From the NCBI GenBank assembly GCA_947379965.1, contig CANCPC010000004.1, positions 1 through 64,000 on the forward strand: a stretch of 64,000 nucleotides of DNA, given 5' to 3'. The notes beneath the pieces were generated by a model. The model ran no database searches. It saw nothing but the letters and a program-made list of their open reading frames with translations, and was not told the origin of the DNA. Shown here one piece after another: positions 49,088-61,347 of this stretch (position 1 is its first letter; each line of letters starts with the position of its first letter). Origin of the DNA: Flavobacteriaceae bacterium (GTDB lineage: Bacteria > Bacteroidota > Bacteroidia > Flavobacteriales > Flavobacteriaceae). The position numbers and the translations under genes are program-made.

Positions 49088-50368
49088 TTAGAAAGAATCT
49101 CTCATCTTCCTCTTTATTTCTTCCAAACACAAATTATTAATACTTCCTTCGTGGGTATGTTTGGTCTCTTTTGGCGATTGGAAAGTACCGTTTTCCAATT
49201 GTTCGGCAACAGCTTTGTAGGCGTCTCTAAAAGGAATTCCCGCAACTACCATTTCGTTTAAAGTATCAACTGTAAAGAGGTAATTGTATTTCGGATCGTC
49301 CAGAATATAGTCTTTTACTTTGATGTCTTTTATAGAGAAAATAGCAATATCCAAACAGGCTTTTAGGTTTTGAATCGCAGGAAATAAACCTTCTTTCAAC
49401 AATTGTAAATCCCTGTGATAACCGCTTGGTAAGTTGTTCGTAATTAGTGTAATTTCATAAGGCAACGCTTGAATCTTGTTGCATTTTCCACGAATTAATT
49501 CAAAAACATCAGGGTTTTTCTTGTGGGGCATAATGCTAGATCCTGTTGTAAGATGCGCTGGCAAACTGATAAAATCAAAATTCTGACTCATATACAAACA
49601 CACATCCATAGAAAATTTAGCCAAAGTTGCAGCAACGCTACTCATTGCAAAAGCCACTGTTTTTTCTGATTTTCCACGGCTCATTTGCGCCGCAACCGAA
49701 TTGTATTTTAAGGTTTCAAAGCCTAATTCTTTGGTTGTAAAAGTTCTATTGATAGGAAATGAACTTCCGTAACCCGCAGCGGAACCTAATGGATTTTGAT
49801 CCACAATTTTCAAAGCGGCATTCAGCATGGTAATATCGTCAATCAGGGTTTCAGCATAAGCAGAAAACCACATTCCGAAAGAAGACGGCATCGCAATTTG
49901 CAAATGCGTATAACCTGGTAACAACACATTTTGGTGTTCTTCGGCAGATTCCATTAGCAAGTCAAAAAGAGTTTGAACTTGCACTTTAAATTCTTTTACA
50001 ACGTCTTTTAAATATAAATTAACGTCGACTAAAACTTGGTCGTTACGAGAACGAGCGGTGTGGATTTTCTTTCCGGCATCGCCTAGTTTTATAGTCAATA
50101 AATATTCTATTTTAGAATGAACATCTTCAAAACTATCTTCGATTTCGAAATCGCCTTTTTCAGCATCAATAATGATATCTTCTAAAGCGAGAACCAAAGA
50201 ATCAGTTTCTTCGTCTGTTAAAAGTCCTATTTGTCCCAACATTTTAGCATGTGCGATAGAACCCAAAGCATCGTATTTGGCTAGGACCAAGTCGAGTTCG
50301 CGGTCGTTTCCAACGGTGAAATGTTCGATTTGTTTATCTGTTGGTATTCCTTTTTCCCAAAGTTTCAT
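49088..50368 (-). CDS. argH: Argininosuccinate lyase
   Basis: ARSRNDQVLVDVNLYLKD, GYTHLQIAMPSS, LTTGSSIMPHKKNPD. Confidence 0.96.
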   Translation of the reverse strand: MKLWEKGIPTDKQIEHFTVGNDRELDLVLAKYDALGSIAHAKMLGQIGLLTDEETDSLVLALEDIIIDAEKGDFEIEDSFEDVHSKIEYLLTIKLGDAGKKIHTARSRNDQVLVDVNLYLKDVVKEFKVQVQTLFDLLMESAEEHQNVLLPGYTHLQIAMPSSFGMWFSAYAETLIDDITMLNAALKIVDQNPLGSAAGYGSSFPINRTFTTKELGFETLKYNSVAAQMSRGKSEKTVAFAMSSVAATLAKFSMDVCLYMSQNFDFISLPAHLTTGSSIMPHKKNPDVFELIRGKCNKIQALPYEITLITNNLPSGYHRDLQLLKEGLFPAIQNLKACLDIAIFSIKDIKVKDYILDDPKYNYLFTVDTLNEMVVAGIPFRDAYKAVAEQLENGTFQSPKETKHTHEGSINNLCLEEIKRKMRDSF

Positions 50369-50414
50369 AATTAGATTTTTTAGATTATTGGACTACATAG
50401 AATATTAGATTTTT

Positions 50415-50472
50415 AGACTTTCTAAGAAGTCTAAAAAAGTCTAAAATCTAAGAAGTCTTAAAAAAGAAGTCT
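50415..50472. repeat. AAGAAGTCT word cluster at the argE/argH junction
   Basis: AAGAAGTCT at 50424, 50450 and 50464 plus inverted TTAGACTT; overlaps 3' end of argE. Confidence 0.8.
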
Positions 50473-51524
50473 GTTAATATTTTAATATATAAATCGACTC
50501 CTTCTTCTATTTCGTTGATGAATATAAATTCGTTTGCCGAGTGCGAACGCAAGCTTTCTCCAGGTCCTAGCTTCAAAGATTGGCAACTGATTACCGATTG
50601 ATCCGAAAGGGTAGGGGATCCGTAAGTGGTTCTTCCTAAAGCGATTCCGGCTTGAACTAATCCGTGCGCAACAGGAATAGAAGACGCATTTAAGTGCATC
50701 GATCTTGGCGTAACTTCGGCAGCTACATTTGCTTTTACCGTGTCTAAAATTTCCTGATTGTTATAGCGATCATTCACCCGAATATCGATAACCAAATGGC
50801 ATTCGGCAGGAACAACATTGTGTTGTTTTCCGGCAGAAATTTGAGTTACGGTCATTTTTACAGGACCTAAAACATCGGATATTTTTGCGAATTCGAAGGT
50901 TTTAAACCATTCAATTACGGGCATTGCATTGTATATTGGATTGTCTGGATTGTTGTGTGCGGCGTGACTGGCAGTGCCTTTTACAACTACATCAAGCACT
51001 AATAATCCTTTTTCGGCTACGGCTAATTGCATTAATGTTGGTTCGCCAATGATGGCACAATCCAATTCAGGTAAATGTTTCAAAACGCTGTTTAAACCAT
51101 TTTTTCCGCTGCTTTCTTCTTCTGCCGAAGCTACCATTACCATATTATAAGGTAAGTTTTCTGCGGCATAAAAATGAGTAAAAGTAGCTATAAGTGAAAC
51201 TAAACAACCGCCGGCATCATTGCTTCCGAGACCAAATAATTTGCCATCTTCTACAATCGCTTCAAACGGATCTTTTGTATAACCTTGATTTGGTTTTACG
51301 GTATCGTGGTGCGAGTTAAGTAAAAGTGTTGGTTTGGCTTTGTCGAAATTCTTGTTGAAAGCCCAAATATTGTTGTTTTCTCTCTCGAAAGGAATTTTAT
51401 TTTGGTTGAACCAATTTTCGATTAAAAGTGCAGTTTTATCTTCTTCGCTCGAAAACGAAGGAGTTTCAATCAGTGCTTTTAACAGGGCAATGGATTCTTG
51501 AGTAAGGGTTGCTATGTTTTTCAT
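50448..51524 (-). CDS. argE: M20 deacetylase, ArgE-like (N-acetylornithine/N-acetylcitrulline deacetylase)
   Basis: NSHHDTVKPNQGY, GSNDAGGCLVSLIAT, ASAEEESSGKNG; cluster context; start at MKNIATLTQ preferred over GTG. Confidence 0.9.
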   Translation of the reverse strand: MKNIATLTQESIALLKALIETPSFSSEEDKTALLIENWFNQNKIPFERENNNIWAFNKNFDKAKPTLLLNSHHDTVKPNQGYTKDPFEAIVEDGKLFGLGSNDAGGCLVSLIATFTHFYAAENLPYNMVMVASAEEESSGKNGLNSVLKHLPELDCAIIGEPTLMQLAVAEKGLLVLDVVVKGTASHAAHNNPDNPIYNAMPVIEWFKTFEFAKISDVLGPVKMTVTQISAGKQHNVVPAECHLVIDIRVNDRYNNQEILDTVKANVAAEVTPRSMHLNASSIPVAHGLVQAGIALGRTTYGSPTLSDQSVISCQSLKLGPGESLRSHSANEFIFINEIEEGVDLYIKILTDFFFKTS

Positions 51525-51602
51525 ATTTATTTTAGCCACGAATTTATTAATTGAATTGAAATATAAAATTTGTGTAAATCTGTTAAATCTGTGTTTAAGT
51601 TT

Positions 51603-52412
51603 TTATAATTCTATACTGGTGCAAATTGCCTTTTTATCTTTCAACATTCTATGGTGACCAATTCGTATTTTTTGAACTCCTTTTGACAAACTATTGAAAC
51701 AGTTGTCCAATTTAGGAATCATTCCAGAATGAATCGCTTTTTCGGCTTTTAATTTGGAATATAATTCTTGGTTTATGTTTTCTATTACTGACGAATCATC
51801 TTCGGCATCGTATAAAACACCTGGTTTTTCGAAGCAATAGTTTAAGGTAACTTCAAATACTTCCGAAGCTGCAATGGCTAATTCGCTGGCAATTGTATCG
51901 GCATTGGTATTCAATAATTGTCCTTTTTTATCGTGCGTTATGGCACAAAAAACAGGAACAATACCGTTCAAAATTAAAGTTTCTAATAAAGGGGTATTCA
52001 CTTTTTGCACATCGCCCACAAAGCCATAATCAATCGTTGGATGATTTCTTTTTGTCGACTGAATCAAATTCCCATCGGCTCCAGAAAACCCCATTGCATT
52101 CGTGTTAATGGCTTGTAATTGAGCCACGATATTTTTGTTGATTTCACCTGCATAAATCATCACAACAACATCAAGCATGGGTTGGTCTGTAATTCGTCTA
52201 CCATCAATCATTTGAGGAGTTAAACCAATACTTTGCGCCATTTTTGTAGCCGATTTTCCGCCACCGTGAACAAGGATTTTGTACCCTTCAATGTTTGAAA
52301 AATCAGAAAGAAACTGCGCTAATTCCGTTGGATTATCGATGATGTTTCCACCAATTTTTATGATGGAAATGCTTTTGGCTTTTGGCTTTTGGCTTTTGGC
52401 TTCTGGAATCAT
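51603..52412 (-). CDS. argB: Acetylglutamate kinase with repeat-encoded N-terminus
   Basis: IIKIGGNIID, HGGGKSATKMAQSIGL, GFSGADGNLI. Confidence 0.94.
   Translation of the reverse strand: MIPEAKSQKPKAKSISIIKIGGNIIDNPTELAQFLSDFSNIEGYKILVHGGGKSATKMAQSIGLTPQMIDGRRITDQPMLDVVVMIYAGEINKNIVAQLQAINTNAMGFSGADGNLIQSTKRNHPTIDYGFVGDVQKVNTPLLETLILNGIVPVFCAITHDKKGQLLNTNADTIASELAIAASEVFEVTLNYCFEKPGVLYDAEDDSSVIENINQELYSKLKAEKAIHSGMIPKLDNCFNSLSKGVQKIRIGHHRMLKDKKAICTSIEL
52371..52400. repeat. Heptanucleotide tandem repeat (GCTTTTG)x4+2 in the 5' coding end of argB
   Basis: Minus strand GCCAAAA x4 encodes AKSQKPKAKS directly after the start. Confidence 0.95.
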
Positions 52413-52417
52413 TTTTA

Positions 52418-53377
52418 CTATTTTAAAGTCTTTTCTCTATTTTCTAAAATCTTCTTCAAAACTAATTGAGCCGAATACGTTCTATTATTCGCTTGTTCGA
52501 TGACAATTGAATTCTCACTGTCAATCACTTCGTCTGTAACAATCATATTTCTACGAACGGGTAAGCAGTGCATGAATTTGGCATTATTCGTCAATTTCAT
52601 CTTATCGGCAGAAACGGTCCAATTAGGATCCGAATTGGTGATTTGTCCGTATTCTTTATAATTACTCCAGTTTTTAGCATAGATAAAATCGGCATTTTCA
52701 AAAGCCTTATTTTGGTCGTATTCAATTTTGGAATCTTTCGTAAACTCAGGATTTAGCTCGTAGCCTTCAGGATGCGTAATCACAAAATCCATATCTTGCT
52801 TTTGCATCATTTCCACAAACGAATTCGGTACCGCTTGTGGCAACGCTCTTGGATGTGGCGCCCAAGTCAAAACTACTTTCGGTCTGTGTTTGGTTTTGTG
52901 TTCTTCCATCGTAATGGCGTCAGCAAGGGATTGCAAAGGGTGACCGGTACAACCTTCCATATTCACAATCGGAACGCTAGCATATTTCATAAAACCAGCC
53001 AAAACAGTTTCGGCATTGTCTTTTTCTTTGTCTTTTAATCCCGCGAAAGCTCTGATAGCAATAATATCGCAATATTGCGAAATAACTGCTGCTGCTTCTT
53101 TAATATGTTCCGAAGCTCCAGAATTCATAATGGCACCGTCTTCGAATTCGAGTGTCCAACCTTCGTTGGTAAAATTCATGACCATCACGTTCATACCCAA
53201 ATTCAAGGCCGCTTTTTGCGTACTCAAACGGGTTCTCAAACTCGGATTAAAAAACAACATTCCTAATGTCTTGTTCTTTCCTAATTTTTTATGTTTAAGC
53301 GGATTTTTTTTAATTTTCAACGCTTCTTTCACCCATTCTTCGAGTGAATCTATATTTTGTACGGAGGTAAAGTTCAT
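52418..53377 (-). CDS. argF': N-acyl-ornithine carbamoyltransferase (ArgF' type)
   Basis: LGMLFFNPSLRTRLSTQKAALNLGMNV; no canonical STRTR; cluster context. Confidence 0.9.
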   Translation of the reverse strand: MNFTSVQNIDSLEEWVKEALKIKKNPLKHKKLGKNKTLGMLFFNPSLRTRLSTQKAALNLGMNVMVMNFTNEGWTLEFEDGAIMNSGASEHIKEAAAVISQYCDIIAIRAFAGLKDKEKDNAETVLAGFMKYASVPIVNMEGCTGHPLQSLADAITMEEHKTKHRPKVVLTWAPHPRALPQAVPNSFVEMMQKQDMDFVITHPEGYELNPEFTKDSKIEYDQNKAFENADFIYAKNWSNYKEYGQITNSDPNWTVSADKMKLTNNAKFMHCLPVRRNMIVTDEVIDSENSIVIEQANNRTYSAQLVLKKILENREKTLK

Positions 53378-53447
53378 TGTAATTCTTGTTTAATCGGTTA
53401 TTTGTTGAATCGATTAACCGAATTACCGATTAACCGAATTAACATTT

Positions 53448-54209
53448 TTATATAATCTTCGTAAAAGCAATTTCGCCTTTCAACGCTTTTAAAATAAAAT
53501 TATCTTCCAAGCCGTTGATGATCCAAGTTTCGATGTTGGCTGCTTTGGCAATAGCCGCAGAATCGATTTTGGATTGCATGCCGCCCGTTCCGTGAGAAGA
53601 TTTCGAATCGCCAATTTCCTTTTGCAAAAGCTGTAAATCCGTTACTAATTCAATAGTTTCAGGAAATTCGTCGTCGAAAGTTGCTTTGGTGTAAATTCCG
53701 TTCGTATTTGTTGCAATTATCAGAATGTCAACGTTTAATAAAACCGCCGTTAAAGCCGCTAATTTATCGTTATCGCCAAACTGAATTTCATCCGTGGCAA
53801 CGGTGTCATTTTCATTAATAATTGGTATGTAATTATTTTTAACCAATACATTAATTGTATTGACGATATTGTCTTTGGTTTGTTTTTTTTCGAAATCGGA
53901 ATAGGAAAGCAAACATTGAGATGTATATAGCCCTAAATCACCAAAATTTTCATTGTAAATCCGCATTAAATGAGGTTGACCAATAGATGCTAAAGCTTGT
54001 TTTATAAAAACATCTTTGTCGTGATTGTCTAGTTTTACAAACTGTTTTGCTGCTGCAATGGCACCAGAACTCACGATTATAAATTCATATTCGTCTTGTA
54101 AAGCGGCAATTTGCATACCAATATCCTCAATCTTTCCTCTCGAAATATGATTGGTTTCCTTGGTGAGCGTGTTGCTGCCTAACTTTAATAAGATTCTTTT
54201 TTTTGCCAT
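53448..54209 (-). CDS. proB: Glutamate 5-kinase without C-terminal PUA domain
   Basis: LLKLGSNTLTKE, VSSGAIAAA, IPIINENDTVATDEIQFGDNDKLAALTA, GTGGMQSKIDSAAIA; 253 aa. Confidence 0.95.
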   Translation of the reverse strand: MAKKRILLKLGSNTLTKETNHISRGKIEDIGMQIAALQDEYEFIIVSSGAIAAAKQFVKLDNHDKDVFIKQALASIGQPHLMRIYNENFGDLGLYTSQCLLSYSDFEKKQTKDNIVNTINVLVKNNYIPIINENDTVATDEIQFGDNDKLAALTAVLLNVDILIIATNTNGIYTKATFDDEFPETIELVTDLQLLQKEIGDSKSSHGTGGMQSKIDSAAIAKAANIETWIINGLEDNFILKALKGEIAFTKII

Positions 54210-54299
54210 ATTATTTAATTTAAAAATTGAAGGATTTAAAAATTTAAAAATTTATTTATCCTCATTTTTTAATACTTCAATCTTTTAATCTTTCAATTT

Positions 54300-55496
54300 T
54301 TATCTAACCTGTCCTTCTCCGTAAATATACCATTTATTAGTAACCAAATGCTGCAAACCTATTGGGCCGCGTTGGTGCAATTTGTCCGTACTTATCGCCA
54401 ATTCTCCGCCCAATCCAAATTGTCCCCCATCGGTAAATCGAGTAGAAGCATTTTGATACACTGCCGCGCAATCTACTTGCTCCATAAATTGTTGGGCAAT
54501 TGCGTTGTTTTTGGTAATAATCGAAGCCGAATGTCCGCCACTGTACTTGTTGATTTTTGCAATCGCTTCTTCGTCCGAATTTACGATTCCAATAACAATT
54601 TTATAATTTAAAAACTCTTCATACCAAATCAAATCGGATTCGATTGGAGGAACATTTGTTGCTTTTGAAATGCTTTCGTCACCCAAAACTTCAACATTAT
54701 ATTTATGTAATTCAGTAACCAAATTAGTTGCGAAATCCTGCCAATTCTCTAAATTTGAATCAATTAATACTTTATCCAATGCATTACAAACACCTATATT
54801 TGTTGTTTTTCCATTGATAATAATGTCTAGTGCTTTTTGCAAATCAGCTTCTTTGTTTATATAAACGAAATTATTTCCACGACCGCTGATAATCACTGGG
54901 CAAGTTGCGTGTTTCTTGGTAAAAGCAATTAATTGTTCGCCACCACGAGGAACGATTAAATCGACTTTTTGTGTTGGTTTCTCTAAAAATGCCTGAGTTT
55001 CGTCTCGATTATAATTCAAATATTCGACCCAATCCGTTGAAATGTTATTTGCTGATAAAGCTTGATGCCACAATTCTACAATTTTCAAATTCGACAATAA
55101 AGATTCTTTTCCGCCTTTCAACAAAATCTTATTTCCCGATTTAAAAGCGATTCCACCAGCTTCAACTGTTACGTCAGGTCTGGATTCGTAAATAATCATT
55201 ATTGTTCCAAAAGCGGCTGTTTTGTTGATGATTTTCAGACCGTTTTCGTGGCCGAAATTGAATCGTTCCACTCCAACAGGATCTTCTTGGCTTGCCAATT
55301 GTTGCATGGATAAAATCATTCCGTCAATTTTGGAATCATCAACGAGCAAACGCTTTTCCATAGCCAAATCTTCCCCAGAATAATTGCTCAAATCCTGTTG
55401 ATTCACCGTTTTAATGTTGGCTCTTTCTTGTTCAAGAAGTACTGCCATACGATTTAAAACAGCATTTCTTTTTTCTATTGATAATAATGTGTTCAT
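54300..55496 (-). CDS. proA: Gamma-glutamyl phosphate reductase
   Basis: IIYESRPDVTVEAGGIAFKSGNKILLKGGKE, NASTRFTDGGQFGLGGELAIST. Confidence 0.96.
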   Translation of the reverse strand: MNTLLSIEKRNAVLNRMAVLLEQERANIKTVNQQDLSNYSGEDLAMEKRLLVDDSKIDGMILSMQQLASQEDPVGVERFNFGHENGLKIINKTAAFGTIMIIYESRPDVTVEAGGIAFKSGNKILLKGGKESLLSNLKIVELWHQALSANNISTDWVEYLNYNRDETQAFLEKPTQKVDLIVPRGGEQLIAFTKKHATCPVIISGRGNNFVYINKEADLQKALDIIINGKTTNIGVCNALDKVLIDSNLENWQDFATNLVTELHKYNVEVLGDESISKATNVPPIESDLIWYEEFLNYKIVIGIVNSDEEAIAKINKYSGGHSASIITKNNAIAQQFMEQVDCAAVYQNASTRFTDGGQFGLGGELAISTDKLHQRGPIGLQHLVTNKWYIYGEGQVR

Positions 55497-55498
55497 TT

Positions 55499-56638
55499 TT
55501 ATGATTTTAATTCTGCCAAAGCTTCTTTTAAGGCGATAATAAATTGATCTATTGCTTCTTTTTTGATTGTCAATGGCGGAAGGATTCTCAATAAATTTTT
55601 ATTGTTAGCGTTTCCGGTAAAAATATGCTTGTCGATAATCAGTTTTTTTCGTAATTCAGAAACATCAAAAGCAAATTCAGCACCCAGCATTAATCCTTTT
55701 CCTTTTACTTTAATCACTTCTGGAACTGCTTTGATGGCTTCCAAGAAATAGGCATAAACATCATTCACGTTATCCATTAAATTCTCTTTTTCCATTACTT
55801 CAAGAACAGCAATTCCTGCGGCACAAGCAAGATGGCTTCCGCCAAATGTTGTCCCCAATAATCCGTAACTTGATGTGAATTTGGGTGAAATCATGATTCC
55901 ACCAATCGGGAAACCGTTCCCCATTCCTTTGGCAAGACAAATAATATCCGCTTTAATTCCGTGATGTTGATGCGCGAAAAACTTTCCGCTTCTTCCATAA
56001 CCCGATTGTACTTCGTCCAAAATAAGAACGACATCATAGGCTTCACAAACTTTTTCCAAAGCTTGAAAAAACTCCGTTGTTCCTTCGTCTAAACCACCAA
56101 CACCTTGGATTCCCTCGATAATGACGCAAGTAACATCGCCTTTTTTCAATTCGGCTTCCACCAAATCAATATTATTCAAAGGCAAGAAAGTAACCACTTG
56201 TTGTGCATTAATTGGCGCAACAATTTTTTTGTTATCGGTAACAGCAACTGCCGCCGAAGTTCTTCCGTGAAAAGCATTATCAAAAGAAATTACACGTGAT
56301 CTTCCGTTGTGAAAAGAGGCTAATTTTAGCGCATTTTCATTAGCTTCGGCACCAGAACTACACAAGAATAAAGTGTAATCTTCGTGACCTGAAAGTTTGC
56401 CTAATCTCTCTGCAAGTTCCACTTGTAAAGGATTTTGGATTGCATTGGAATAAAACCCAATATTATCCAACTGATTCTTTAATTTGGCAACATAATCCGG
56501 ATGTGTATGACCAATAGAAATCACACCGTGACCGCCATATAAATCAAGATATTCCACTCCGTTTTGGTCTGTAATTGTGTAATCAAGCGCTTTTACAGGC
56601 GTGATAGGGTATAATGGGTAAACGTTGAATAAGTTCAT
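55499..56638 (-). CDS. argD: Class III aminotransferase, acetylornithine aminotransferase-like
   Basis: LYGGHGVISIGHTHP, FDNAFHGRTSAAVAVTD, LILDEVQSGYGRSGKFFAHQ, LAKGMGNGFPIGG. Confidence 0.93.
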   Translation of the reverse strand: MNLFNVYPLYPITPVKALDYTITDQNGVEYLDLYGGHGVISIGHTHPDYVAKLKNQLDNIGFYSNAIQNPLQVELAERLGKLSGHEDYTLFLCSSGAEANENALKLASFHNGRSRVISFDNAFHGRTSAAVAVTDNKKIVAPINAQQVVTFLPLNNIDLVEAELKKGDVTCVIIEGIQGVGGLDEGTTEFFQALEKVCEAYDVVLILDEVQSGYGRSGKFFAHQHHGIKADIICLAKGMGNGFPIGGIMISPKFTSSYGLLGTTFGGSHLACAAGIAVLEVMEKENLMDNVNDVYAYFLEAIKAVPEVIKVKGKGLMLGAEFAFDVSELRKKLIIDKHIFTGNANNKNLLRILPPLTIKKEAIDQFIIALKEALAELKS

Positions 56639-56647
56639 TTTTTTTAT

Positions 56648-56708
56648 GTTTAATTGGTTAATCGTTAATTGGGTTAATCGATTAAACACTTAACCGATTA
56701 ACCAAATC
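56648..56708. repeat. GGTTAATCG-family inverted repeat at the argD/argC junction
   Basis: GGTTAATCG at 56656 and 56672, CGATTAACC at 56695. Confidence 0.8.
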
Positions 56709-56715
56709 AACTTTT

Positions 56716-57693
56716 TTAAAACCCGCTTGGTTTCAAATGTAATCCTGTGCTTTCGTCTAATCCAAACATTAAATTCATGTTCTGTATGGCTTGTCCCGAA
56801 GCACCTTTTGTTAAATTATCAATAACAGAAGTGATTAAAAGCCGGTTTCCTTTTTTCATTAAACTGATAATACATTTGTTCGTTTGCACCACTTGTTTCA
56901 TATTTATGGCAGTCGTGGTAACGGTTACAAAGGGTTGGTCTTTGTAAAAAGCTTGGTATTTTGCTAAAATATCTTCTAGACTTTCTTCGATAGTTGTATA
57001 CAAAGTGGCGAAAATTCCTCTGGCAAAATCGCCTCTATTCGGTACAAATATCAATTCGTTTTGATATGCTGCTTGCAACTGATTCACACTTTGGTTTATT
57101 TCACCCAAATGTTGATGGTCGAAAGCTTTATAATGCGACATATTATTGGATCTCCAACTGAAATGCGTCGTTTCCGAAGGGGTAACTCCAGCGCCGGTAC
57201 TTCCTGTTGTAGCGTTGATATGCACGTCGGTTGTTAATAAATTATGCTTCGCCAAAGGTAATAAGGCGAGTTGAATTGCAGTTGCAAAACAACCGGGATT
57301 GGCGATAAATTGTGCATTTTTAATTTCCGATTTATTCAATTCTGGTAAACCATAAACGAATGATTTTCCATCAAAATTATGGTCTTTTGTCAAACGGAAA
57401 TCATTTCCTAAATCGATGATTTTGGTATGACTTGCAAATTGATTCTGTTCTAAAAAAGCTTTCGATTTTCCGTGACCTAAACATAAGAAAACAACATTCA
57501 CATTGGGATTCACGGTGTCAGTAAAATTCATTTCGATATCGCCAAGCAAATCATAATGTGCTATCGAAAGTGGTTTTCCAGCATTTGTGGTGCTGTAAAC
57601 AAAATCCAATTTTGCATTGGGGTGAAACATCAATATTCTGATGAGTTCGCCCGCCGTGTAACCTGAACCGCCAATTATTCCAATATTAATCAT
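56716..57693 (-). CDS. argC: N-acetyl-gamma-glutamyl-phosphate reductase
   Basis: IGIIGGSGYTAGELIRIL, ANPGCFATAIQLAL, TGSTGAGVTPSETTHFSWR. Confidence 0.96.
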   Translation of the reverse strand: MINIGIIGGSGYTAGELIRILMFHPNAKLDFVYSTTNAGKPLSIAHYDLLGDIEMNFTDTVNPNVNVVFLCLGHGKSKAFLEQNQFASHTKIIDLGNDFRLTKDHNFDGKSFVYGLPELNKSEIKNAQFIANPGCFATAIQLALLPLAKHNLLTTDVHINATTGSTGAGVTPSETTHFSWRSNNMSHYKAFDHQHLGEINQSVNQLQAAYQNELIFVPNRGDFARGIFATLYTTIEESLEDILAKYQAFYKDQPFVTVTTTAINMKQVVQTNKCIISLMKKGNRLLITSVIDNLTKGASGQAIQNMNLMFGLDESTGLHLKPSGF

Positions 57694-57701
57694 AATTATT
57701 T

Positions 57702-57786
57702 AGATTTTAGATTTTAGATTTTAGATTTTTGATTTTAGAAGTAAGGTATTTCAACCCAATCTGAAATCAAAAATCTGAAATCAAAA
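57702..57786. repeat. Heptamer (AGATTTT)x4 plus 17-bp inverted repeat at the argG/argC junction
   Basis: AGATTTT units; AGATTTTTGATTTTAGA (57723-57739) / TCTGAAATCAAAAATCT (57760-57776). Confidence 0.85.
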
Positions 57787-57800
57787 ATCATCAATTTATT

Positions 57801-58994
57801 TTATTCGTGAGTCAATTTATTTACTGATGAAAATATATTTTGTGCATTCCCTAAAATCTTGATAAATCCTTTGGCATCGTCCGATGTCCAAGCGTTGTTC
57901 ATTTCGCCATATTGTCCAAAACCAGTATTCATCAAATCATTTGCAGATTCGATTCCGTCCAATGAAAAGTGATACGGTTTCAAAGAAACGGTTACTGTTC
58001 CGTTTACCGTTTCTTGAGTTGATTCTAAGAAAGTTTCGATGTTTCTCATAACAGGATCAAGAAATTGACCTTCGTGAAATAACATTCCGTACCAGTTTCC
58101 TAGTTGTTCTTTCCAATATTGTTGCCATTTTCCAAGCGTATGTTTCTCTAATAAATGGTGCGCTTTGATGATGATAATTGGAGCAGCGGCTTCAAAACCA
58201 ACTCTTCCTTTAATTCCTATTATGGTATCGCCAACGTGAATATCTCTACCAATTGCGAAAGCATTTGCTAGTTTTTCAACAGCGACAATATTGTTAGATG
58301 GTTTGTCTTTTTTGCCATTTACTGCAACTAATTGCCCTTTTTCGAATTCTAAAGTTACTTTTTCTTCGCCTTCTTTTGTCAATTGAGAAGGATACGCTTC
58401 GCTAGGCAACGGAAGATTTGAAGAAAGTGTTTCTTTTCCACCAACGCTTGTTCCCCACAATCCTTTGTTGATTGAATATTGTGCTTTTTCCCAAGAATAA
58501 TGCACACCATTTTTAGCTAAATAATCCACTTCTTCTTGACGCGATAATTTCAAGTCACGAATAGGAGTGATGATTTCAATTTCTGGAGCGATGGTTTGGA
58601 AAATTAAATCAAAACGAATTTGGTCATTTCCTGCACCTGTACTTCCGTGAGCAATGGCGGTTGCACCCACTTTTTTGGCATATTTTATAGCTTCAATAGC
58701 TTGAAAAACACGTTCAGCACTTACGGATAATGGATAGGTGTTGTTTTTTAATACATTTCCATAAATTAAATACTTGATGGCTTTGTCATAATATTTGTCT
58801 ACAATAGTTAGGTTCGCGTGTTGTGCGCTTCCTAATTCGTAGGCTCTTTCTTCGATTACATTTAACTCGGCTTCATCAAATCCACCAGTATTGATCAATA
58901 CAGTATGAACTTCGTATCCTTTTTCGTTTTTCAAATATTTTAGACAGTAAGAAGTGTCTAATCCTCCGCTATAGGCTAATACTACTTTTTTCAT
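57801..58994 (-). CDS. argG: Argininosuccinate synthase
   Basis: VVLAYSGGLDTSYCLKYL, IAHGSTGAGNDQIRFD, NKGLWGTSVGGKET. Confidence 0.96.
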   Translation of the reverse strand: MKKVVLAYSGGLDTSYCLKYLKNEKGYEVHTVLINTGGFDEAELNVIEERAYELGSAQHANLTIVDKYYDKAIKYLIYGNVLKNNTYPLSVSAERVFQAIEAIKYAKKVGATAIAHGSTGAGNDQIRFDLIFQTIAPEIEIITPIRDLKLSRQEEVDYLAKNGVHYSWEKAQYSINKGLWGTSVGGKETLSSNLPLPSEAYPSQLTKEGEEKVTLEFEKGQLVAVNGKKDKPSNNIVAVEKLANAFAIGRDIHVGDTIIGIKGRVGFEAAAPIIIIKAHHLLEKHTLGKWQQYWKEQLGNWYGMLFHEGQFLDPVMRNIETFLESTQETVNGTVTVSLKPYHFSLDGIESANDLMNTGFGQYGEMNNAWTSDDAKGFIKILGNAQNIFSSVNKLTHE

Positions 58995-59123
58995 AATTAA
59001 TTTTTTTTCCTCCCCCCGACCCCTCCGAAGGAGGGGGAGCCGTTACCGGTAAAGGGGAATTTTATTTGTTTATACTTATTATTTTCTTTATTCCCTCCCC
59101 TTCGGGGCGGGTTGGGGCGGGGA
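58995..59123. repeat. C/G-rich intergenic repeat block with hairpins and a G-quadruplex motif
   Basis: CCTCCCCCCGACCCCTCCGAAGGAGGGGGAG...CCCTCCCCTTCGGGGCGGGTTGGGGCGGGG in an AT-rich genome. Confidence 0.85.
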
Positions 59124-59741
59124 TTATTTTTTCAAAAATAATGCTTGTTTTATTTCTTTTAATCTATTCCAAATCCGGACGTTGAACGGATGTTTTGGTG
59201 GGTTTTTTGGCTTTTCTTTTGGGTCATAAAGCATCCCTGTACACAGACACATTTTATTCTCTTTGCTTTTTAAGATTTCATAATTAGTACATGTTTGGCA
59301 TCCTTTCCAAAAACTAGGGTCTGTTGTCAATTCCGAAAAAGGAACTGGTTTGTAACCCAAATCCGAATTTATTTTCATTACTGCCAATCCAGTTGTGATT
59401 CCAAAAACTTTAGCATCTGGATATTTTTTCAACGAGTAATCAAAAACGAATGATTTAATTTTTTTTGCTAATCCCAAATTTCTATAATCAGGATGAACTA
59501 TTAATCCAGAATGAGCTACAAATTTGCCATGTTGCCAACTTTCGATGTAACAAAACCCTGCAAATTTACCATCGATTAAAGCAATAACCGCATCGCTATT
59601 TTCCATCTTTTTTTGAATATATTCAGGTGTTCTTTTTGCAATACCAGTTCCTCTCAATCGTGCAGAGGATTCTATGGTTTCGCATATTTCTTGCGAAAAT
59701 TTATAATGTTCTTCCTGAGTAACAACGATAACTATCTTCAT
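59124..59741 (-). CDS. GNAT acetyltransferase heading the arg cluster, Cys-rich C-terminal region
   Basis: HSGLIVHPDYRNLGLAKKIKSFVFDYSLKKYPDAKVFGIT; CQTCTNYEILKSKENKMCLCTG. Confidence 0.85.
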   Translation of the reverse strand: MKIVIVVTQEEHYKFSQEICETIESSARLRGTGIAKRTPEYIQKKMENSDAVIALIDGKFAGFCYIESWQHGKFVAHSGLIVHPDYRNLGLAKKIKSFVFDYSLKKYPDAKVFGITTGLAVMKINSDLGYKPVPFSELTTDPSFWKGCQTCTNYEILKSKENKMCLCTGMLYDPKEKPKNPPKHPFNVRIWNRLKEIKQALFLKK

Positions 59742-59930
59742 TTCAAGAGTTGAATTTTTGGTTTAAAAATGATGCGTTAATTAATCTTGAAAAAGTTTTG
59801 CAATTATTTGAGAAAATGCAAATTGAACGATACCCTGATAAATTGAAAATAATGCTATTTTCAGGATATAAAAATCCAAATAATAATTGTAATGATTTCA
59901 AAATGATAAAAATGAAATATGAATAATAAA

Positions 59931-60036
59931 TAAACACTGTGCTGGAGACTATAGTTTTAGCATCCGTACTTCGGGAGAAGTCGTTGGTTTTTTTATCCGT
60001 GAGAAAGAAGTAATATGTACACTTTTTATATTCATT
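59931..60036 (-). promoter_or_regulatory. Candidate structured leader region of the arg cluster
   Basis: Block between predicted promoter (60041-60048) and the 59741 start codon; hairpins ACTTC-tccc-GAAGT and TGCT...AGCA. Confidence 0.35.
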
Positions 60037-60040
60037 GGTG

Positions 60041-60048
60041 CAAATTTA
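60041..60048 (-). promoter_or_regulatory. -7 element upstream of arg cluster
   Basis: Minus strand TAAATTTG with TTG 17 nt upstream (60066-60068). Confidence 0.5.
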
Positions 60049-60165
60049 CGATTAATTTATTAAATCAATAGATTTTTTTTCTAACAAAAGTAAAAGTTAT
60101 TGTTAATTTTTCTAGAATACTACGCTTTAAAACTTAGCTTTTTGTGACTAATAGTTTATCTATAA

Positions 60166-61347
60166 TTAATTTCTAAATGCATTTCTAAGGAATAGATTTT
60201 TGAGTTTGTCTTTGAAAATTTCACCAGTATTAAAAATCATATCTTCATTGGTTGGAAACAAAAGTGCTCTTTTATCAAAATTATAATAATAATTATCGTC
60301 AGACGCTCTACGGTCGCCTTTGAAAGTAGAGAAAACATTTTCAAAAACATATTCACTACTTAATGGAAAAGATTGTATTAACAGATTTTTTCTATAATCG
60401 ACATAATCCACTTTTGCAATTATTTGGCTCGTTTTGAGTTGTCTCGTTTCGTAAATTCGAACGTTTATCGTTCTTATGTTATCCACTAGAACAGGCTTTC
60501 CCGATCTATCTAAAACTTCTTTTCCATTAGCATCTAAGAGTCTCTTTTGACCGTCCTTTATTTGACGTTCCTTAATGAATTCTCTCTCGTTCATTTGCTC
60601 TGGCGAAATATATATTTCTCTAAAATAAACTACCATTCCGTAATCATAATCGATGCCTTTATGTTTGTCACCGTGGTAAATGGTCCATTTGTCATTCAAA
60701 CCATAGGTGTTAAAATCCAATAATTCATTGAGTAAACGACCTGGAATAATCATGTTTGTTTCGTTTCTCATCGTAACGCTCACATAATCGGTTCCTTTAA
60801 AATGAGCTTCGTCCAAGAGGTCTAAAATGTTCTTATAATTGGGATTTATCTGGTTTAAATAAGTCAAATCATCGAAAGCTTTACGATAATTCATTTTATC
60901 GGAAGTCGCCATCAATAATTTTGAATTGTTATAAAGATAATTTGATAAATTATTTTTGGTTGTAATGATTTGGTCATTATAATTATCGAAAGGGAAAATA
61001 GCATTTCTACCTTCTTTCAATACCTTTAAAGGCAGTAAAGGTTTTATTTTTTCCTGACGGTCATTTAGCAATAAATAGGTATTGAATATTTTCTCAAAGT
61101 TGGCTGGATTTCGCTCTTTTTCCCATAAGCTAAGGGAATTCAAATCACGTTCTTTGGCTTTGGCGAAAGCCTCTTCAAGTAAATAAACATAATCTTGGTT
61201 TCCTTTTTTGTCTTTATTTGAACGTAAACTCGCAACCGAATTGGCGATTGCCTCATCGTAATTTCCAGCACTTAATAAAAATTGAGTTTGTTTAACTCCA
61301 CAAGAAATCAGTATTAAAAAAGCTATAATAAAAAAGAGTTTTTTCAT
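60166..61347 (-). CDS. Hypothetical lipoprotein
   Basis: Lipobox FLILISCGVK; 393 aa; no family recognised. Confidence 0.7.
   Translation of the reverse strand: MKKLFFIIAFLILISCGVKQTQFLLSAGNYDEAIANSVASLRSNKDKKGNQDYVYLLEEAFAKAKERDLNSLSLWEKERNPANFEKIFNTYLLLNDRQEKIKPLLPLKVLKEGRNAIFPFDNYNDQIITTKNNLSNYLYNNSKLLMATSDKMNYRKAFDDLTYLNQINPNYKNILDLLDEAHFKGTDYVSVTMRNETNMIIPGRLLNELLDFNTYGLNDKWTIYHGDKHKGIDYDYGMVVYFREIYISPEQMNEREFIKERQIKDGQKRLLDANGKEVLDRSGKPVLVDNIRTINVRIYETRQLKTSQIIAKVDYVDYRKNLLIQSFPLSSEYVFENVFSTFKGDRRASDDNYYYNFDKRALLFPTNEDMIFNTGEIFKDKLKNLFLRNAFRN

Follow-up and report, generated by a model that had tools for sequence, protein, structure and literature searches.

What kind of element separates the promoter from the first gene of the arginine operon in the window, by which we mean the whole 64,000-nucleotide stretch of Flavobacteriaceae DNA analysed here? 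The initial annotation had described a leader of ~295 nt with a block of higher GC than its surroundings, and had proposed an arginine- or ornithine-responsive cis-regulatory RNA. The difference in composition is confirmed, with 36-39% GC in the block versus 17-27% in most flanking windows. An alignment of 16 relatives places this GC-richer block inside a reading frame, and the block upstream of the arg operon is mainly coding, not riboswitch-like RNA. We consider it quite probable, from comparative sequence evidence, that the leader acts as a ribosome-read, arginyl-tRNA-sensing leader-peptide attenuator that controls the arg operon. The features of the locus, in the direction of transcription, are as follows.

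60082..60105, minus strand: inverted repeat TAACAA-N12-TTGTTA upstream of the promoter, a candidate operator or activator site (perfect match in the window)
60041..60068, minus strand: promoter of the Bacteroidota type, TTG-N17-TAAATTTG, predicted from sequence
60035-59949, minus strand: uORF1, a predicted leaderless leader peptide ORF of 28 codons, MNIKSVHITSFSRIKKPTTSPEVRMLKL and stop (alignment of relatives, open frame)
59997..59999, minus strand: putative control codon Arg13 (CGG), CGG in 73 of 74 relatives and AGG in one
59968..59981, minus strand: hairpin P1, ACUUC-UCCC-GAAGU, directly 5' of the Arg24 codon (paired cells, compensatory changes)
59964..59966, minus strand: putative control codon Arg24 (CGG), CGG in 75 of 75 relatives
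59944..59965, minus strand: hairpin P2, GGAUGCUA...UAGUCUCC, spanning Arg24 and the uORF1 stop codon (paired cells, compensatory changes)
59919..59926, minus strand: UUAUUCAU, complementary to the uORF1 start AUGAAUAA, a possible long-range helix P3 (pairing)
59743..59901, minus strand: ORF2, a UUG-started relay ORF of 52 codons that ends 1 nt before the GNAT ATG (open frame in relatives)
59862..59879, minus strand: hairpin P4 inside ORF2, UUGGAU...AUCCUG (paired cells, two-sided changes)
59124..59741, minus strand: GNAT-family N-acyltransferase, first structural gene of the operon (Pfam PF00583, E 5.6e-07)
49088..58994, minus strand: the rest of the operon, namely argG, argC, argD, proA, proB, N-acetylornithine carbamoyltransferase, argB, an argE-type deacylase and argH (NCBIfam and Pfam)

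The position of the promoter bears directly on where translation could begin. Inspection of the sequence finds TAAATTTG at 60041-60048 on the minus strand and a TTG 17 nt upstream of it, both as the initial annotation had placed them; the promoter consensus of F. johnsoniae is TTTG/TANNTTTG (PMC6847099). At 75 dissimilar loci from relatives, a TAnnTTTR box precedes the uORF1 ATG by 4-6 nt in 73 and by exactly 5 nt in 65, and the TTG-N16..18 part of the promoter is seen in 36. Given the exact 5-nt spacing at these 65 loci, the transcript probably starts at or beside the uORF1 AUG, and the same spacing supports the start near 60036 that had been predicted earlier. Farther upstream, TAACAA-N12-TTGTTA is found in 68 of 75 relatives when up to 2 mismatches in 12 positions and spacers of 10-15 nt are permitted, mostly 70-76 nt before the uORF1 ATG (~75 nt in the window). 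This repeat resembles the operator or activator site of a regulator and is a candidate for one. As a marker of a wider regulon it was rejected, with exact matches in five genomes no commoner than those of a reversed control pattern. Upstream of the leader, 60166-61347 encodes a 393-aa protein with a lipoprotein-like signal start (MKKLFFIIAFLILISCG) and no Pfam match.

uORF1 opens with an ATG at 60035, 5 nt past the TAnnTTTG box, and closes with a TAG that ends at 59949. Its frame lacks stops in all 74 testable relatives, and the other two frames are stopped in 74 and 59 of them. At 0.92, its dN/dS is similar to that of the other frames and the residues are not under clear purifying selection, so the case for coding is built on open frames, codons and homology. 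At one locus (L049), TCGAGG stands in place of TCACGG and keeps Ser-Arg through altered codons, and another (L101) carries a 3-nt deletion. Neither uORF1 nor ORF2 has a Pfam match and the leader has no Rfam match; such elements are therefore easily missed. Sequence searches with uORF1 beyond the genus returned chance hits only (for example, at locus L082), and where they failed, synteny with the GNAT-argG pair was used to find leaders. Of the ~295-nt leader described at the outset, the conserved region and the predicted start stand; its untranslated character does not, since two ORFs cover most of it.

The distribution of uORF1 follows that of a single operon. Its relatives place the window in the genus Flavobacterium. 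The region was common to 16 of the first relatives searched and then to 108 of 250 Flavobacterium genomes, and uORF1 occurs in 108 of the 108 genomes in that set that encode a GNAT ortholog at least 84% identical. One further genome with uORF1 (G204) has a GNAT gene interrupted by a stop; otherwise, uORF1 is not found where the GNAT is missing. The GNAT lies 170-244 nt downstream of uORF1 in all 106 distinct loci examined, and in a second collection uORF1 is present in 80 of 80 genome records, nearly all labelled Flavobacterium and including F. johnsoniae CI04. The initial annotation had named two outcomes that would speak against it, namely a lack of conservation upstream of orthologous clusters and a transcript start near 59741; the present evidence points to neither. 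The GNAT protein (59124-59741) has no NCBIfam match. Given the place of its gene at the head of the arg operon, it is a candidate for the N-acylglutamate synthase missing in these bacteria. Its C-terminal part contains cysteine. In the gap between argG and the GNAT gene (58995-59123), several G+C-rich inverted repeats (CTCCCCCCGACCCCTCCGAAGGAGGGGGAG and similar) stand out against the AT-rich genome and may be REP-like or mobile. A contig labelled as a Klebsiella pneumoniae MAG (L192) carries a GNAT 92% identical to that of the window together with a Flavobacterium-type uORF1; evidently, the label is wrong or the bin contaminated.

Arginine codons link the leader peptide to the product of this operon. 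Arg13 and Arg24 are invariant in the window clade and encoded by CGG in 148 of 149 cases, whereas CGG makes up 4.6% of arginine codons in twelve window genes and 7.0% in GNAT orthologs, with AGA dominant. The CGG of Arg24 is partly tied to hairpin P2, and that of Arg13 lies outside the hairpins. According to attenuation theory, the choice among synonymous control codons affects sensitivity (PMC1183508), and this may apply to CGG in uORF1. The clade keeps only two arginine codons in uORF1, which is few for a classical attenuator. In other genera, where the sequence 5' of the same GNAT-argG pair was inspected directly, leader ORFs end in runs of arginine before the stop codon (MHTSNKTNQISLRRRRPMRRR, MKGQRHISNTLSNLAPVRPFSRRRRP and MKTIKSKIRTFFPAMRFRMRRR, with endings such as RRRRPMRRR and SRRRRP). 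Arginine in the sampled ORFs of these genera is mostly CGC, CGT or CGA and rarely AGA, and the loci often carry a second leader ORF, such as one ending in ...SVRRFFPRP. Diverged Flavobacterium have a homologous ORF, mostly with three arginine codons, 23 of 28 being CGG (MKKTTLHSNLSTRKTLTLTSRSERSTF, MNTKKLHTTSTLRTIATVSSRSVRSLSL, each followed by a stop). Arginine enrichment over the last ten codons reaches z 14.7 in 20 loci from other genera or families and z 6.9 in 11 diverged Flavobacterium, with 0 of 200 shuffles in either case. Arginine is by far the most enriched of the 20 amino acids at leader-ORF ends, and the sole strongly enriched residue in the 20 other-genus or other-family loci. Shuffles of the maximum arginine count locus by locus are mostly not significant; the pooled last-ten-codon test is. 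The invariant codons and the arginine runs of relatives thus strongly support the arginine-responsive cis-regulatory leader first proposed. They do so in a different form from a structured, ligand-binding RNA sensor, against which stand the translated-looking ORF and the lack of an Rfam match, and the likely sensor is a ribosome reading the arginine codons.

Two conserved hairpins lie where such a ribosome would pass. The sequence elements listed in the initial annotation (ACTTC-TCCC-GAAGT, two copies of ACGGAT, and TGCT...AGCA around ACTATAGT) are all present, and the first of them forms P1. The suggested TGCT...AGCA pairing is replaced by a conserved second hairpin, GGATGCTA...TAGTnnCC. P1 is paired in 99.2% of cells and shows 5 two-sided changes, from U-A to C-G; P2 is paired in 89%, with 5 two-sided changes as well as one-sided changes from G-C to G-U. 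Both exceed shuffled controls in two-sided changes and covariation score and slid versions in pairing, with relatedness only partly corrected. One-sided hairpin changes give G-U pairs on the minus strand alone, which points to it as the RNA strand; a plus-strand RNA (ACUUC-GGGA-GAAGU, with a GNRA-like loop) was rejected for this reason and because the ORF is encoded by the minus strand. The P3 site UUAUUCAU, upstream of ORF2, is paired in 93.4% of cells versus 38-64% when slid, with no covariation excess, and a long-range helix between it and the uORF1 start is possible. P4 has weaker support than P1 and P2, with 79.7% of cells paired and 6 two-sided changes, just modestly above slid controls. 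Single-sequence folding of the leader is no better than that of shuffles (z -0.3 to -0.8); the case for the leader is made by conservation and would not have been made by structure alone.

Different hairpins are present in other Flavobacteriaceae. At loci L161, L163-L168, L170, L185 and L187, a second arginine ORF 5' of the GNAT closes with a hairpin, CGCCC-GUAA-GGG, whose tetraloop contains the stop codon; another hairpin, GGAAC...GUUCC with the loop UGAGU, follows. These tandem hairpins are conserved, with apparent compensatory changes and no U run, and are lost in the window clade.

Constraint on the peptide itself might suggest an arrest peptide, in which the nascent ...TSPEVR(M/I/T)L would stall the ribosome on free arginine or ornithine, as SpeFL or TnaC do, and not on uncharged tRNA. 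SPEVR is indeed very conserved in the window clade, and the peptides of relatives are also basic near the C-terminus. The conserved stretch coincides, however, with P1 and P2, which can account for its conservation, and beyond the clade different residues are seen (SRSER, SRMVR, LRVVR, RRRRP) while the arginine codons persist. The uORF1 dN/dS is near 1, and runs of arginine codons are the hallmark of tRNA sensing. We regard arrest on a free ligand as unlikely; the simplest account is that arginyl-tRNA is sensed through the progress of the ribosome across the CGG codons.

Between uORF1 and the GNAT lies the second reading frame, ORF2, whose most constant property appears to be that it can be read. 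It is fully open in 66 of 68 relatives, compared with 0 and 1 for the other frames, and over the 68 loci it contains 2 in-frame stops versus 255 and 329. At 34 loci its stop precedes the GNAT ATG by 1 nt and at 19 overlaps it (-4), together 53 of 68. A conserved UUG-AAA lies 45-57 nt past the uORF1 stop, and the frame is open from there to the GNAT start. The distance between uORF1 and ORF2 varies through all three phases, which suggests that ORF2 starts at this UUG, itself an unusual start, and is not a continuation of uORF1. With a dN/dS of 0.73, no different from other frames, the protein sequence drifts while the frame stays open; the conserved property therefore appears to be translatability. 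In diverged Flavobacterium, at few loci, the corresponding UUG-AAA ORF ends in ...RRRFRP before its stop, and for this reason ORF2 seems to be derived from a second arginine leader ORF. At one locus (L096), ORF2 runs into the GNAT in frame without a stop, a natural fusion of relay ORF and enzyme. In constrained folding, a ribosome at codon 13 or 24 leaves the accessibility of the ORF2 start unchanged, and only a ribosome on the 5' AUG raises it (51 of 67 loci). The idea that a ribosome stalled at Arg13 or Arg24 directly unmasks the ORF2 start was thus rejected as unsupported.

A frame without stops in 66 of 68 genomes, ending at the GNAT start, would also be expected if uORF1 and ORF2 encoded small functional proteins, or only boosted reinitiation at the GNAT, with no sensing of arginine. 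We judge this very unlikely, given the weakly conserved residues and the lack of Pfam matches, and such a role leaves unexplained the enrichment of arginine codons, the invariant CGG and the exclusive link to the arg operon.

How would a ribosome on uORF1 affect the operon? A search for ArgR (PF01316), positive in the controls E. coli, B. subtilis and Bacteroides, found it above the cut-off in 0 of 31 genomes, comprising that of the window, an incomplete assembly in which absences carry little weight, and 30 related ones. All 20 relatives searched have Rho, and the window's own copy is cut by the contig end. No intrinsic terminator was found on the minus strand of the leader, and terminator-like sites occur in the leaders of just 2 of 75 relatives; the G+C-rich hairpin with a U run, alternating with an antiterminator, that defines trp/his-type attenuators is likewise absent from the leader. 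The lack of a conserved intrinsic terminator and the presence of Rho in all relatives tested favour an output through Rho, through ORF2-GNAT coupling, or through both. The initial annotation had recognised no named riboswitch consensus, and the Rfam scan agrees, giving no family at the gathering threshold and so no assignment to T-boxes or known riboswitches. A metabolite-binding riboswitch or T-box, for which one could cite the long conserved leader and its conserved covarying hairpins, is exceedingly unlikely, as Rfam hits at lower thresholds (mir-59, snoR128, CRISPR-DR55) are due to chance, each of P1-P3 is located in a conserved ORF or pairs with it, a conserved unpaired binding core is not seen, and the leaders of relatives carry arginine codons.

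The comparisons support two ORFs, their arginine codons, P1 and P2, a link to the arg operon, no conserved intrinsic terminator and an undetected ArgR; from these we infer stalling, the direction of the response, and Rho and coupling as the output of the attenuator. Transcription would start at or beside the uORF1 AUG, and uORF1 would be translated leaderless. When charged arginyl-tRNA is scarce, the ribosome would slow at CGG codons 13 and 24, and its position would set the formation of P1 and P2, the translation of ORF2 and continued transcription. ORF2, with its stop at or overlapping the GNAT AUG, would then relay translation to the GNAT start codon. When arginine is plentiful, the ribosome would complete uORF1 and depart, and P1 and P2 would fold; the poorly translated RNA would then undergo termination, probably Rho-dependent, or the following start would not be reached. 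A more specific version of the attenuator is possible and is put forward tentatively. In this two-stage device without an intrinsic terminator, a leaderless uORF that reads CGG, and so senses one isoacceptor and not that of the common AGA, would gate the UUG-started relay ORF, whose translation would shield the RNA from Rho and hand ribosomes to the GNAT. The arrangement would have replaced an ancestral pair of leader ORFs with arginine runs, and would be the main arginine control in lineages that lack ArgR.

Leader-peptide attenuation is a known mechanism. Like the trp, his, leu, thr and ilv attenuators, this locus has a short ORF, of predicted translation, right after the promoter and before the first structural gene, codons for the end product of the operon, hairpins (P1 and P2) that overlap the control codons, and a matching arg operon downstream. 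Unlike them, it concerns arginine, appears leaderless, has no intrinsic terminator that could be found and few control codons in the window clade, and includes a second, long relay ORF. An upstream ORF also makes an arginine-pathway gene responsive to arginine in the fungal arginine attenuator peptide, a eukaryotic system that differs in arresting on free arginine through its peptide sequence and has no homology to uORF1. The closest described use of arginine codons with Rho is the orf34-speF leader of Salmonella, in which a short upstream ORF contains arginine codons and the progress of the ribosome governs both termination by Rho and translation of the following gene (PMC6386406). That leader differs in controlling ornithine decarboxylase, in having two consecutive arginine codons and in its unrelated sequence, and the abstract describes no such tandem relay ORF (PMC6386406). 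For amino-acid operons of F. psychrophilum, leader-peptide attenuation has been proposed in general terms from transcript maps; that study shares the genus and the general mechanism, and its main text names pheA and hisG, not the arg operon, among conserved 5' elements (PMC9723704). Searches of an open-access library brought up no published arginine leader peptide for Bacteroidota, nor any arginine attenuator there that combines tandem ORFs with the lack of an intrinsic terminator.

The locus also speaks to how leader peptides evolve: runs of arginine can be reduced to two rare codons, with the leader peptide still recognisable, though by synteny alone. In the relay ORF, nature offers a clear example of a frame kept open while its protein drifts, and with it the notion that translation shields RNA can be tested directly in F. 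johnsoniae. In well-studied bacteria, arginine synthesis is mainly under the ArgR repressor. An attenuator conserved across Flavobacteriaceae would explain how arginine is sensed in these organisms, with ArgR not found above the cut-off in the 31 genomes searched.
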